NCBI GenBank assembly: GCA_900299025.1
Contig: OMIE01000066.1
Coordinates: 1-64,000, forward strand
Direction of reading: 5' to 3'
From: Burkholderiaceae bacterium
GTDB taxonomy: Bacteria; Pseudomonadota; Gammaproteobacteria; Burkholderiales; Burkholderiaceae_E
DNA: 64,000 nt
Shown: positions 2,206 to 61,094 of the stretch, piece by piece
Layout: each line of letters opens with the position of its first letter
How positions within the stretch are numbered: position 1 is the first letter of the stretch
Made by a program: the position numbers and the translations under genes
Notes under the pieces: model-generated
What the model was told of the DNA's origin: nothing
What the model saw: the letters and a program-made list of their open reading frames with translations, nothing else
The model's database searches: none

Positions 2206-4539
2206 TTGAGCGCTTTGTTATCCGTGGACCTTCGCATCGAAGGAATGAGATGCGCAGCATGCGCAAGCCGGATCGAGCGCGCTTTGACGAGGCGCAATGG
2301 CATCGAAAGCGTCAAGGTGAATTTAGTCCATGAAAAAGCCAGAGTCCGTTTTGATAAGGAGCAAGTGAGTAGCGAGGACTTGCTGAAATGGATCGACAGC
2401 ATCGGCTTTAAGGCAAGCCTTTTGCAAACCGATCAAGCAAGCAGTCAAGCGCAGGCACGAAAGCGAGCAGCCAAGCAAAGCGAGCGTCGGGAGGCAGTGC
2501 TCATTACTTTAAGCGCCCTACTTACCTTACCCTTGATGCTTCCCTGGTTGTCAGCCTGGCAGCAAGCGCTGCTTGCAAGTATCGTGCAATCAGTGATGGG
2601 TTATCGTTTTTATCGCGGTGGCTATCAGGCTTTGCGAGGCGGATCGCCCAATATGGATTTGTTGGTGGCGATTGGAACGAGCGCTGCCTGGGGATTGAGT
2701 TGCTGGAAATTACTAAGCCATGGGCTCGATGTGCAGCCCCACGAGCATTTATATTTTGAAGCAAGTGCTGCTGTGATCACGATGGTCCGCCTTGGCAAGT
2801 GGCTTGAGTCGCGCGCCAAGACCAAAGCCATCGCTGCGATGGACGCCATGCAAGAACTGCAGCCGCAACGCGCTTTCCTGATCACAGAGTCCCAGTTAAG
2901 TGATCAAGTTGCAGCGATCGCTTATCGCGAACTTGCTATCGACGATTTAATGGTGGGCGATCGAGTTTTGGTCAAACCTGGTGGCCAAATACCACTCGAT
3001 GGCATGGTTCGCATGGGCGAATCGAGCGTCGACGAATCGATGTTTACGGGTGAGAGCCGACCGATCCATAAGCAAGTTGGTGACCATGTGATCGGCGGCA
3101 CACTTAATCGTGAGGGTTTACTGCATGTGGAAGTTACAGCGCTTGCGCAACGCGGTCTGTTATCGCGAATGATCGAAGCGATCGAAAAAGCGCAACTTGA
3201 GCAAGCGCCGATTCAGCGCCTCGTCGATCGCGTAAGCGCAGTCTTTGTTCCGCTGGTTGTTTTTATAGCGCTTCTAAGCCTTCTTGGTGGTTATGCCTGG
3301 CACGGCGATCTGGAGGCAGCGAGCATTGCCGCCGTTTCGGTATTGGTGATTGCCTGTCCTTGTGCGCTCGGTCTAGCCACGCCCACTGCGATTGCGGTGG
3401 CAACAGGCTTGGCAGCGCGACGAGGTATTCTGATTCGGGATGTGGCAGCGCTTGAGTGCCTTCACCAGATCAAGATCATGGCCTTTGATAAGACCGGTAC
3501 CCTCACTGAAGCAAAACCGCGACTCATCGCACAGGCAAGTTGGGACGCGTTTGAGACGATGCATTTGGCGCTTGCTGCATCGCTTTCGCAAACTTCAGAG
3601 CATCCTTTAGCTAAGGCTTTGATAGAAGCGGCTCAAGCGCAAGGCCTGCGTGCTTCCCGACATTTTGACCGATGGCAAGCGTTACCGGGCCGCGGTATCG
3701 AAGCGGCAAGCGGATCGCAAGCTTGGCGGCTGGGCTCACCAAGCTGGGTGCTCCAAGATCTAGATCAAGCTTTGCTCCCTGAGCAAACATGGCAAGCCTT
3801 TAAACATGGTTTGGATCAGCATGTAGCTCAAGGCTACAGCCTAAGCGTTTTAGCAGTAGCTGACCTTGATTCCGATAGCTTGGCCTGTGGTCATACCGAC
3901 GGCCTTGCTCCTCGTCATACCGTTAGCGGCGGGGCCCGTGGCGGCTGGCATGTGCTCGCCTGGTACGCCTTTGATGACCATCTGCGCGAAGGCGCAAAAG
4001 AGGTGATTCGGGCCGTCCATGCGATGGGGCTCCATACGGCACTACTGAGCGGAGACGCACAAGTCCTTGTCAAACGACTTGCCAAGTCGCTTGGGATCGA
4101 TGAGGCACACGCTCAGATGCTGCCCGAACAAAAAGCGCAGGTCCTGGGGCAACTTCGCACAAGACTGGGCCCCGTTGCGATGCTCGGCGACGGTATTAAT
4201 GATGGTCCTGCCTTAGCCGCAGCCGATGTTGGCATCGCCATGGGATCGGGAAGCGATCTAGCCAAGCAAAGCGCTGCCATCACCTTGATGCGTAGCGATC
4301 CAAGCTTACTGATTCCCTTATTTGCCCTGGGGCGCGCTTGCTGGCGTACGATTCAAACGAATCTCTTTTGGGCTTTTGCTTTCAATGCAATCGGTATACC
4401 GCTTGCAGCATGCGGTTTACTTCATCCCGCTTTTGCTGGTGCTGCGATGGCTATGTCCTCGCTTATGGTCATTGGCAACTCGCTGCTCTTAAACCGTCGC
4501 TTGCATACGATGGAAAATCGCCTTGCTTGTTTGACGTAA
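2206..4539 (+). CDS. copA: Copper-translocating P1B-type ATPase
   Basis: A 777-residue inner-membrane pump expected to export Cu(I). The N-terminal HMA domain has C16 and C19 (GMRCAAC). The membrane part carries the CPC motif (C384-P-C386); the TGES actuator motif and the DKTGT phosphorylation site (D428) are present, as are the SEHPLA motif and GDGINDGPAL hinge. The last helices carry an asparagine (AFAFNAIG) and M-x-x-SS (AMAMSSLM), fitting the Cu(I) P1B-1 subgroup. An insertion with Cys and His residues at about 553-582 precedes the hinge region. The start is TTG 2206, because no ATG is in frame upstream; GTG 2224 is the alternative. Its stop lies 3 bases from the convergent glmS stop. Confidence 0.93.
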   Translation: MSALLSVDLRIEGMRCAACASRIERALTRRNGIESVKVNLVHEKARVRFDKEQVSSEDLLKWIDSIGFKASLLQTDQASSQAQARKRAAKQSERREAVLITLSALLTLPLMLPWLSAWQQALLASIVQSVMGYRFYRGGYQALRGGSPNMDLLVAIGTSAAWGLSCWKLLSHGLDVQPHEHLYFEASAAVITMVRLGKWLESRAKTKAIAAMDAMQELQPQRAFLITESQLSDQVAAIAYRELAIDDLMVGDRVLVKPGGQIPLDGMVRMGESSVDESMFTGESRPIHKQVGDHVIGGTLNREGLLHVEVTALAQRGLLSRMIEAIEKAQLEQAPIQRLVDRVSAVFVPLVVFIALLSLLGGYAWHGDLEAASIAAVSVLVIACPCALGLATPTAIAVATGLAARRGILIRDVAALECLHQIKIMAFDKTGTLTEAKPRLIAQASWDAFETMHLALAASLSQTSEHPLAKALIEAAQAQGLRASRHFDRWQALPGRGIEAASGSQAWRLGSPSWVLQDLDQALLPEQTWQAFKHGLDQHVAQGYSLSVLAVADLDSDSLACGHTDGLAPRHTVSGGARGGWHVLAWYAFDDHLREGAKEVIRAVHAMGLHTALLSGDAQVLVKRLAKSLGIDEAHAQMLPEQKAQVLGQLRTRLGPVAMLGDGINDGPALAAADVGIAMGSGSDLAKQSAAITLMRSDPSLLIPLFALGRACWRTIQTNLFWAFAFNAIGIPLAACGLLHPAFAGAAMAMSSLMVIGNSLLLNRRLHTMENRLACLT

Positions 4540-57978: not shown

Positions 57979-58878
57979 TTAAACGTATGCAGCAAGCAAT
58001 TGGCGCAAGCGCATGAGGGCTTTGACTTCGATCTGGCGAATACGTTCGGCGGAAACGCCAAATTCTGCAGCTAAGTCATGGAGCGTTAGCGCCTGCGATT
58101 CATCTTCATTGAGCCAGCGCGCCCGGATAATGCGTTGGCTTCTCGGGTCGAGTTGCTCGATGGCCTCTGAAAGGCCCTCGCTCTCCAGCCAGTCTTGTTC
58201 TTGCGCCTGCAGGCGCTGAGCAGGGTCTGCGCCCGGTGCTGCAAGATAAGCAATCGGGGCAAAAGACTCATCGTCTTCGCTTCCACCTGGCTCAAGTGCA
58301 AGTTCCTGGCCGCTCAAACGCATATCCATTTCAAGCACGTCTGCTTCGCGCACGTTGAGGCGCTGAGCAATCGCATGGACCTCAGCCGTGGTCAGTTGGG
58401 CGCTTGCCGATTTTTCGAGCTCTTGCTTTTGCGATCGCAGATTGAAAAAGAGCTTGCGCTGCGCCTTGGTGGTCGCGACCTTAACCATGCGCCAATTACG
58501 CAAAATAAACTCGTGGATTTCGGCTTTGATCCAATGCAAGGCAAAGGAGACGAGACGAACACCACGTTCAGGGTCAAAACGCTTTACCGCTTTCATGAGG
58601 CCGACATTGCCCTCTTGGATCAAATCAGCGTGGGGGAGTCCGTAGCCCAGATATTGCCTGGCCGTCGAAACCACCAGACGCAGATGCGACAAGATCAGTT
58701 CACGCGCCGCGTCGAGGTCGCCTTGATCGCGCAGCTTGCGGCCAAGCTCAGTTTCACGCTCGGGGCTGAGCAAGGGTAGGCGGTTAACTGCCGAAATGTA
58801 GGCCTCCAAGTTACCGATTGCAGGCAAACTAAAACTGGCCATATTGCTTGTGAGGCTTAGTGCGTTGCTTGTAGCCAT
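57979..58878 (-). CDS. rpoH: RNA polymerase heat-shock sigma factor RpoH (sigma-32)
   Basis: A 299-residue alternative sigma factor directing transcription of chaperones and proteases. The RpoH box QRKLFFNLR is present (in TTKAQRKLFFNLRSQK), distinguishing it from RpoD/RpoS. Region 2 reads DLIQEGNVGLMKAVKRFDPERG; region 4 has LHDLAAEFGVSAERIRQIEVKALMRLR. ATG 58878 is preferred because GGGAG lies 7 bases upstream; the longer start at 58884 adds two residues. Its promoter carries a CIRCE element. The upstream same-strand gene is ftsY. Confidence 0.97.
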   Translation of the reverse strand: MATSNALSLTSNMASFSLPAIGNLEAYISAVNRLPLLSPERETELGRKLRDQGDLDAARELILSHLRLVVSTARQYLGYGLPHADLIQEGNVGLMKAVKRFDPERGVRLVSFALHWIKAEIHEFILRNWRMVKVATTKAQRKLFFNLRSQKQELEKSASAQLTTAEVHAIAQRLNVREADVLEMDMRLSGQELALEPGGSEDDESFAPIAYLAAPGADPAQRLQAQEQDWLESEGLSEAIEQLDPRSQRIIRARWLNEDESQALTLHDLAAEFGVSAERIRQIEVKALMRLRQLLAAYV

Positions 58879-58968
58879 CAACATACTCCCGATATGAAGA
58901 GGACAGATTCAGTGGTTCAACGGTCGAATCTGGTAAATGAACGGAAGAATTCTTGCTTTCATGGCACG

Positions 58969-58974
58969 ATTTTA
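58969..58974 (-). promoter_or_regulatory. Extended -10 of the rpoH promoter
   Basis: TGCTAAAAT on the minus strand is a TGn-extended -10 box, overlapping the distal half of the CIRCE element. The transcript would carry a leader of roughly 80 bases before rpoH. Confidence 0.55.
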
Positions 58975-58998
58975 GCACTCGACCACAAAGAGTGCTAG
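58972..58998. promoter_or_regulatory. CIRCE element (HrcA operator) upstream of rpoH
   Basis: The plus strand reads TTAGCACTC (58972-58980), nine bases, then GAGTGCTAG (58990-58998). The CIRCE consensus is TTAGCACTC-N9-GAGTGCTAA, so only the last base differs. Such sites are bound by the heat-shock repressor HrcA. The element overlaps the likely rpoH -10, as expected for repression. hrcA itself is not in the window. Confidence 0.9.
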
Positions 58999-59016: not shown

Positions 59017-60312
59017 TTAACAATCCAACAATGCGTTGGCAAATTCCTCGGCACGGAAGGCTTGTAAATCGTCAACGCCCTCCCCTACACCAATGAAATA
59101 AACGGGTATCGGTCGATCTTTGAGTTGGTGCGCGAGGGCTAGCAGGGCGCCGCCTTTCGCGGTCCCATCGAGTTTAGTCACGACCAAGCCGCTTAGGGAA
59201 ATCGCCTCGTCAAACGCCTTCACTTGATGGAGCATGTTTTGCCCAGTGTTGCCATCCAGTATGAGCAAGGCCTCATGAGGCGCATCACTCATGGCTTTGC
59301 CAATAACGCGGCGAATCTTTTTGAGTTCATCCATTAAATGGCTTTGGGTTGGAAGTCTGCCCGCAGTGTCAATCATCACGACACCGCTTTGGCGCGCTCG
59401 CCCTGCGCTGACCGCGTCAAAAGCCACCGCTGCGGGGTCACCGCCTTGTTGAGCAATGACCTCGACCCCGTTGCGTTCGCCCCAAATCGCAAGTTGCTCG
59501 CGGGCGGCTGCTCGGAAGGTGTCACCCGCCGCGAGTAAAACGCTTTTGCCTTCTCGTTGAACATGCCTTGCGAGCTTGCCAATCGAGGTCGTTTTTCCCG
59601 CGCCGTTGACACCGGCAATCATCAAGACAAGCGGGGTACTTCGATCCAGATCAATACCGCCTTCAAGTGGTATTAACCGATCCCGAATGAGGTCGCGAAG
59701 GCGATAGCGTACGGCCTGACCATCGGTGAGTTTTTCTTGTTTGATTACCTGCCTTAAGGCGGCGATCAGGGACTCAGTGGCTGCAATGCCAGCGTCGGCT
59801 TGAATCAATGCTGACTCCAGGTCTTCAAGCATTTGCTCGTCAACTTTGACCACACCAAAGAGATCGGCAAGTTGATTGCGGGTCTTGGCAAGCCCTCCTT
59901 TAAGTCGAGCAAACCATCCACGCTTCGAAGCGCCGTCATCCTTTGACCCGGCTTCATCGTTAGTGCTTGCCGCATCTGCAGCGGCAGGGGCCAAGGTCAT
60001 GGCTTCAGGCTTCAAAGACGCGGCAACTACGGTAGGCAAGGCAGACTGTTGAGTTGCAACGACCGGTGCTGGCAGCGAAGCTTGGGTTTGCGCGTTGGCT
60101 ACTACTTCCGCGCTTGGCGACGCTGAGAGCTGGGGATTCGGCGGCTCAGCGACCGCGGCATCATGCGCCCCGGCGATCTGAGCCTCAGGCGACCGAGCGA
60201 CCTGGGGACTTGGCGGCTCAGCTACGAGGGGATCAGGCGCTTGAGCTGATTCGCTTTCGCTTGCCGGAGAGGGAGTAAAAACCGACTTTAGTCGACGAAA
60301 AAATCCAAACAT
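59017..60312 (-). CDS. ftsY: Signal recognition particle receptor FtsY
   Basis: A 431-residue GTPase that docks SRP-ribosome complexes at the membrane. The N-terminal acidic/proline-alanine-rich A domain (about residues 12-140) is low complexity and rich in AVAEPP-type repeats. The NG domain has P-loop GVNGAGKTTSIGKLA, DTFRAAAREQL, DTAGRLPTQSHLM and TKLDGTAKGGALL. ATG 60312 is chosen because FGFFRRLKSVF is a typical FtsY start. The rpoH gene follows downstream without ftsE or ftsX in between. Confidence 0.96.
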   Translation of the reverse strand: MFGFFRRLKSVFTPSPASESESAQAPDPLVAEPPSPQVARSPEAQIAGAHDAAVAEPPNPQLSASPSAEVVANAQTQASLPAPVVATQQSALPTVVAASLKPEAMTLAPAAADAASTNDEAGSKDDGASKRGWFARLKGGLAKTRNQLADLFGVVKVDEQMLEDLESALIQADAGIAATESLIAALRQVIKQEKLTDGQAVRYRLRDLIRDRLIPLEGGIDLDRSTPLVLMIAGVNGAGKTTSIGKLARHVQREGKSVLLAAGDTFRAAAREQLAIWGERNGVEVIAQQGGDPAAVAFDAVSAGRARQSGVVMIDTAGRLPTQSHLMDELKKIRRVIGKAMSDAPHEALLILDGNTGQNMLHQVKAFDEAISLSGLVVTKLDGTAKGGALLALAHQLKDRPIPVYFIGVGEGVDDLQAFRAEEFANALLDC

Positions 60313-60389
60313 TGATAACGCACCCGCATGAAGGGGAGGAGGCTTTGCGCTCGCGGCCCAAAGCTCGGAAGAGGGCTTGGACTGCCCTC

Positions 60390-61094
60390 GTGCATAGTAT
60401 CGATGATGACACATTGCGATCACCACACGAGAAAGCCTTGACCAAGCCAAGCCATCCACGAGAACCCAATAAACTCGCTCGAGCCCAGGGGAGCGTGCGC
60501 ATCATTGCTGGAAGGTGGCGATCAAGACAAGTCGCTGTCCCAGCCATCGAAGGCCTAAGACCAACCCCTGATCGGGTGCGGCAGACATTATTTGATTGGC
60601 TCCAGCATTTTTGGGCGGGCCAGGGGCAGGATTTAAGCGGCATGAGGGTACTTGATGCATTCGCAGGCAGTGGTGCGCTTGGATTTGAAGCGGCTTCGCG
60701 CGGAGCGAGCCATGTCAGCTTTCTTGAACAGCACCCGCTTGCAAGTCAAATGCTTGCTCGGCATATTGCAAGTTTCCAGGCTGCACATTTGCAATTGATC
60801 AGCGGCCATGCCTTGCGGATTATGGAGCGACTCAACCGAGGTGTTGAGCGCTTCGATTTGGTGCTCCTTGACCCGCCGTTCGCCTCGCAACTGCACTTGC
60901 CAGCAGCCCAATTGGCTATACCCTTGTTATCGGAGGCCGGTTTGCTTTATGTCGAGTCCGATCAGAGCTGGGACGAGCACCTGCGCATGGCTAATGAGCC
61001 AGCCAGGGAACTGCTTACCCATGCCTTTATGGTGCTCAGACAGGCTAAGGCTGGTTCAGTGCATTACCATTTACTGCAGAAAAACTCAGCTTAA
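60390..61094 (+). CDS. rsmD: 16S rRNA (guanine(966)-N2)-methyltransferase RsmD
   Basis: A 234-residue (by this start) SAM methyltransferase that modifies G966 of 16S rRNA. The core begins at GSVRIIAGRWRSRQV, followed by LRPTPDRVRQTLFDWL and the SAM motif VLDAFAGSGALGFEAASRGA. The catalytic L-D-P-P-F sits in LVLLDPPFASQLHLP. The N-terminus is uncertain: GTG 60390, TTG 60414 and TTG 60435 are all in frame, and a TTG as early as 60312 would overlap the divergent ftsY start codon. coaD follows 18 bases downstream. Confidence 0.9.
   Translation: MHSIDDDTLRSPHEKALTKPSHPREPNKLARAQGSVRIIAGRWRSRQVAVPAIEGLRPTPDRVRQTLFDWLQHFWAGQGQDLSGMRVLDAFAGSGALGFEAASRGASHVSFLEQHPLASQMLARHIASFQAAHLQLISGHALRIMERLNRGVERFDLVLLDPPFASQLHLPAAQLAIPLLSEAGLLYVESDQSWDEHLRMANEPARELLTHAFMVLRQAKAGSVHYHLLQKNSA

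Follow-up and report, generated by a model that had tools for sequence, protein, structure and literature searches.

A predicted HrcA operator overlapping the rpoH promoter of a lake betaproteobacterium and its conservation among relatives

In the lake betaproteobacterium studied here, genome sequences make it very probable that HrcA directly represses rpoH, the gene for the main heat-shock sigma factor, sigma-32. The inverted repeat in front of the gene is in all likelihood a genuine HrcA operator (CIRCE) lying over a sigma-70 extended -10 promoter, within a feed-forward loop with feedback through the chaperonin; we infer the binding of HrcA, the repression, the heat response and the GroEL feedback. 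The textbook picture of rpoH control derives from E. coli, an organism without HrcA. The comparisons described below suggest that direct HrcA repression of rpoH is the common and probably ancestral arrangement in the class; the E. coli scheme would be the remainder after the loss of HrcA.

The predicted operator and promoter in front of rpoH

The source genome is a draft of 2.97 Mb in 180 contigs and is 97.7% complete. In the window, which is the whole stretch of 64 kb that was analysed, rpoH is preceded by ftsY as its co-directional neighbour, with a gap of 132 bp between the genes. In E. coli, rpoH likewise lies behind the fts cluster. The features of the locus, in the direction of transcription, are as follows.

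59017..60459, minus strand: ftsY (TIGR00064, 321.7 bits; start codon uncertain)
58972..58998, minus strand: CIRCE operator, predicted HrcA site, CTAGCACTC-TTTGTGGTC-GAGTGCTAA, with one mismatch at the outermost base of the distal arm
58993..58998, minus strand: weak -35-like hexamer CTAGCA in the distal CIRCE arm, 18 bp before the -10, assigned by inspection
58969..58977, minus strand: extended -10 TGCTAAAAT, with TGCTAA from the CIRCE arm and AAT outside CIRCE
58961..58963, minus strand: predicted rpoH transcription start, placed about 7 nt downstream of the -10 from the position of that box
58886..58890, minus strand: rpoH Shine-Dalgarno sequence GGGAG, 7 nt 5' of the ATG at 58878
57979..58878, minus strand: rpoH, sigma-32 (TIGR02392, 382.5 bits, cut-off 323.1)

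The first-pass annotation had placed a CIRCE element one base off the consensus at the rpoH promoter, overlapping an extended -10, and a pattern scan of the window bears out both points. With TTAGCACTC-N9-GAGTGCTAA as the consensus and up to three mismatches allowed, the window contains just one match, the element at 58972-58998 (plus-strand letters TTAGCACTC-GACCACAAA-GAGTGCTAG), where shuffled sequences give 0.02. The element begins 18 bp from the end of ftsY. The rpoH-side arm GAGTGCTAA is followed by AAT and so reads on into TGCTAAAAT, which has the sigma-70 extended -10 form TGnTAnnnT; this overlap is kept in relatives along with the site. The hexamer CTAGCA matches a -35 box in three of six positions, and relatives have TTAGCA or TTGGCA there. 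There is no convincing stand-alone -35, and a generic sigma-70 scan returned no promoter. The grounds for calling a promoter are therefore the extended -10 and the fact that relatives conserve it. As an operator, the element is characterized by few mismatches, an hrcA gene in the same genome, a position at the promoter of a heat-shock gene, and conservation and loss together with hrcA.

Predicted wiring of the heat-shock circuits

A single hrcA gene is present in the genome (PF01628, 219 bits, over the cut-off of 22.2; E 8e-65), so that the absence on which the HrcA proposal could have foundered is not the case. By sequence, its product is a relative of the HrcA whose structure is 1STZ. Exactly two CIRCE elements occur genome-wide within three mismatches, one at rpoH and the other 87 bp before groES, the first gene of groESL. 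This second CIRCE is directly preceded by a sigma-32 promoter of groES, CTTGAAA-N14-CCGTATTA. The grpE gene, located near hrcA, has the sigma-32 promoter CTTGAAA-N13-CCCCACAT and no CIRCE in its upstream region, and upstream of hrcA itself neither a CIRCE nor a clear sigma-32 promoter was seen. With hrcA and grpE free of CIRCE, the HrcA regulon therefore comprises groESL and rpoH only. The predicted wiring gives HrcA two targets, rpoH and groESL, and sigma-32 likewise two, groESL and grpE-dnaK. Of the two-circuit link envisaged in the first-pass annotation, the coupling of HrcA to rpoH is supported; a simple cascade, in which the sigma-32 regulon just follows rpoH, is not, since groESL carries both a sigma-32 promoter and a CIRCE. 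For the same reason, the circuit combines a feed-forward loop and feedback.

By occupying CIRCE at growth temperature, HrcA would cover the -10 and block RNA polymerase, and the synthesis of sigma-32 would be low. HrcA is known from other bacteria to lose activity when GroEL becomes occupied. Heat or misfolded protein that engages GroEL would thus lower HrcA activity, and rpoH and groESL would be derepressed jointly. The newly made sigma-32 would then act on groESL, through a promoter accompanied by CIRCE, and on grpE-dnaK, which has the sigma-32 promoter only. Once free GroEL is restored, HrcA would become active again and shut both rpoH and groESL. Such a circuit would be a coherent feed-forward loop, with HrcA acting on rpoH and groESL and sigma-32 acting on groESL, combined with negative feedback via the chaperonin. 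Transcriptional repression by HrcA does not exclude added control of sigma-32 at the level of mRNA or protein stability. Read-through from ftsY could also add some HrcA-independent rpoH mRNA. For cultivable Burkholderiales, it can be predicted that deletion of hrcA would increase the transcription of rpoH and, as a consequence, the expression of the entire sigma-32 regulon.

Across the groES loci compared, CIRCE comes after CTTGAAA-N-CCnTATTA, a sigma-32 promoter. This arrangement, with CIRCE directly behind CTTGAAA...CCnTATTA, can be seen in locus L034 (about 3115-3175) and in loci L147-L173. Because CIRCE directly adjoins it, HrcA would block the start region of the groES sigma-32 promoter.

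Conservation across the class and a sigma-E-type promoter

Conservation of the site upstream of rpoH in relatives, which the first-pass annotation had listed as a check, was examined in 28 loci from the genome of the window and its relatives (13 families) and in 80 named loci, nearly all of them betaproteobacterial. A CIRCE lies 5' of rpoH in all 106 evaluable loci. It is perfect in 69, has one mismatch in 33, two in three and four in one, so that 102 of the 106 sites have at most one mismatch. The class-wide sample consisted of genomes outside the order, with rpoH loci oriented by tblastn. Here, rpoH has a CIRCE in 39 of 43 CIRCE-bearing genomes, and in none of the 17 genomes without CIRCE. 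The four CIRCE-bearing genomes with none at rpoH are G225, G238, G248 and G276; two to four good CIRCE sites are found in G276 and G238, none of them before rpoH. Outside these samples, a CIRCE before rpoH (-51) was predicted for Geobacter sulfurreducens in 2004 (PMC545781). As in the genome studied here, that bacterium has both systems, with a CIRCE near the 5' end of rpoH and another at groESL; it differs in that its hrcA-grpE-dnaK-dnaJ cluster also has a CIRCE, whereas hrcA and grpE have none here. On the class-wide counts and the Geobacter report, the link between CIRCE and rpoH looks old. In a control search with PF01628, no HrcA was found in E. coli, which is therefore without CIRCE control of rpoH.

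In E. coli, rpoH is also served by a sigma-E promoter. In many relatives of the genome studied here, a similar promoter is interlocked with CIRCE. In 57 of 160 loci, GGAAC lies within the 30 bp that precede CIRCE; shuffles give 3.5, and the adjacent 30 bp further upstream give 8. Where GAACY lies 6-30 bp before CIRCE, TC follows at exactly N16 in 80 of 93 loci and TCnnA in 70 of 93, with at most 18 for other spacings, a lock that partly reflects the placement of GAACY because one common register takes its TC from the CIRCE arm itself (CACTC). The sequence GGAACTT-N16-TCnnA is built like a sigma-E promoter, and its -10 falls within or just before CIRCE. The version GGAACTT-N16-TCTAA interlocked with the rpoH CIRCE can be read in loci L046, L060, L098, L103 and L197 and in about 70 more rpoH loci. 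In 39 of 77 named loci, the motif scores above a 1% null, with a matrix trained on class-level loci and a null that shuffles upstream DNA only. Upstream of rpoH in the window, GGAACTT-N16-TCnnA is absent (best matrix score -6.9). The window belongs to a family without RpoE (f1, G000-G018), in which only G014 of the members sampled has the protein, while RpoE (TIGR02939, over the cut-off) was found in all other families sampled. Among the 28 close loci, the motif is present in 8 of the 12 whose genomes encode RpoE and in none of the 16 whose genomes do not (p 1.6e-4), an association close to a single evolutionary event because the RpoE-less genomes all come from one family. It appears rather probable that many Gammaproteobacteria (as GTDB defines them, with the betaproteobacteria) use a single CIRCE as a composite switch that overlaps a sigma-70 extended -10 as well as a promoter for sigma-E (GGAACTT-N16-TCTAA), and that HrcA thereby gates both the housekeeping and the envelope-stress input into sigma-32. 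The window, which has sigma-70 and CIRCE only, would then show a reduced state after RpoE loss; by the same account, the CIRCE-rpoH link would be ancestral for the class, and the scheme of E. coli, which lacks HrcA, would be derived.

HrcA might bind the site and still control rpoH only weakly, with most rpoH mRNA coming from ftsY read-through or another promoter and with folding of the mRNA and proteolysis mainly setting sigma-32, in the manner of E. coli. The co-directional ftsY only 132 bp away, the additional sigma-E-type promoter in many relatives and the widespread control of sigma-32 stability would all fit with this. However, in many relatives CIRCE interlocks with this sigma-E-type promoter too, and in the window's family both the motif and, in nearly all sampled members, RpoE are missing. 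The single fold computed for the predicted rpoH 5' mRNA is not unusual (z = +0.82), and the strong conservation across the class argues for a real regulatory share of the operator. Weak control of this kind is unlikely.

Fusion of the -10 to CIRCE and joint loss with hrcA

The bases that flank CIRCE at rpoH are free to vary except for position 29, which is A in 90% of loci, and position 30, which is T in 100%. Together they complete the -10 TAAnAT, and the T is present in all 106 loci. In 27 groES loci from the same genomes, CIRCE is mostly followed by CAA or CAG, and T occurs at position 30 in 3 of 27 (11%). As this T is rare at groES, fusion to a -10 is a property of the rpoH promoter and not general to CIRCE. 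It is very unlikely that the -10 match is incidental, arising because GAGTGCTAA happens to give TGCTAA, and that the real promoter lies elsewhere: six of the nine extended -10 bases are indeed CIRCE bases and the -35 is weak, but the non-CIRCE bases A29 and T30 are kept at rpoH, and two relatives without hrcA retain the -10 after their CIRCE has decayed. In these two, G051 (locus L127) and G196 (locus L116), the former sites read TGATAAAAT and TGGTAGAAT, with the extended -10 TGnTAnAAT intact. The two cases are suggestive only, but they would fit with a promoter that outlives its operator after hrcA loss.

Within the order, hrcA is found in 178 of 200 genomes and is missing in 22, with G200 and G203 counted as hrcA-less by elimination. 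Of the 178 genomes with hrcA, 175 have a CIRCE with up to two mismatches, as against 1 of the 22 without hrcA (table 175/3/1/21; Fisher p about 3e-24, a value that ignores shared ancestry). The exceptions are mostly assembly gaps or degenerate cases. Among the hrcA-bearing ones, the assembly of G047 has no rpoH, the hrcA match of G100 is degenerate, and G198 has a CIRCE with three mismatches at rpoH; the lone match in an hrcA-less genome (G200, two mismatches) is far from rpoH. In five mixed families (f4, f24, f31, f34 and f51), the hrcA-less member has no rpoH CIRCE, and the hrcA-bearing members examined retain it. The loss of hrcA thus coincided with loss of the rpoH site in at least five separate events. 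The presence of hrcA, the conservation of the site with its -10 overlap, and the keeping and loss of CIRCE and hrcA together support the proposal that HrcA would repress rpoH.

That the repeat is an RNA hairpin, as an ftsY terminator or an mRNA stability element, is most improbable: it sits just 3' of ftsY, and a CIRCE within the 5' UTR can influence mRNA stability in Bacillus, but here the rpoH transcript would begin downstream of the repeat, whose -10 overlaps it, the arms are conserved by letter and not by pairing, and the repeat disappears along with hrcA. The terminator or RNA-element reading was also rejected for want of a T tract, a terminator-like site, an unusual 5' fold and any Rfam family above chance.

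Permina and Gelfand (2003) reportedly surveyed the regulons of HrcA/CIRCE and of sigma-32 in beta-, gamma- and epsilon-proteobacteria, the same two systems and bacterial groups as here, and their survey probably lists some rpoH sites. The HrcA-rpoH link is not new in kind, as it was already predicted for Geobacter, and in the searchable literature that report is the only direct statement of a CIRCE upstream of rpoH (PMC545781). Three findings are apparently unreported in searchable papers, although the 2003 survey may contain part of them: that the -10 is invariably fused to CIRCE at rpoH, that the site has repeatedly been lost along with hrcA, and that relatives have the interlock with a sigma-E-type promoter. 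The main text of a transcription-start paper on Cupriavidus metallidurans gives no start for rpoH (PMC9045368). Finally, in genome G222 (locus L225), the sequence GAGTGCTAAAATTT immediately before the rpoH CIRCE resembles an additional CIRCE arm in tandem, complete with a -10.
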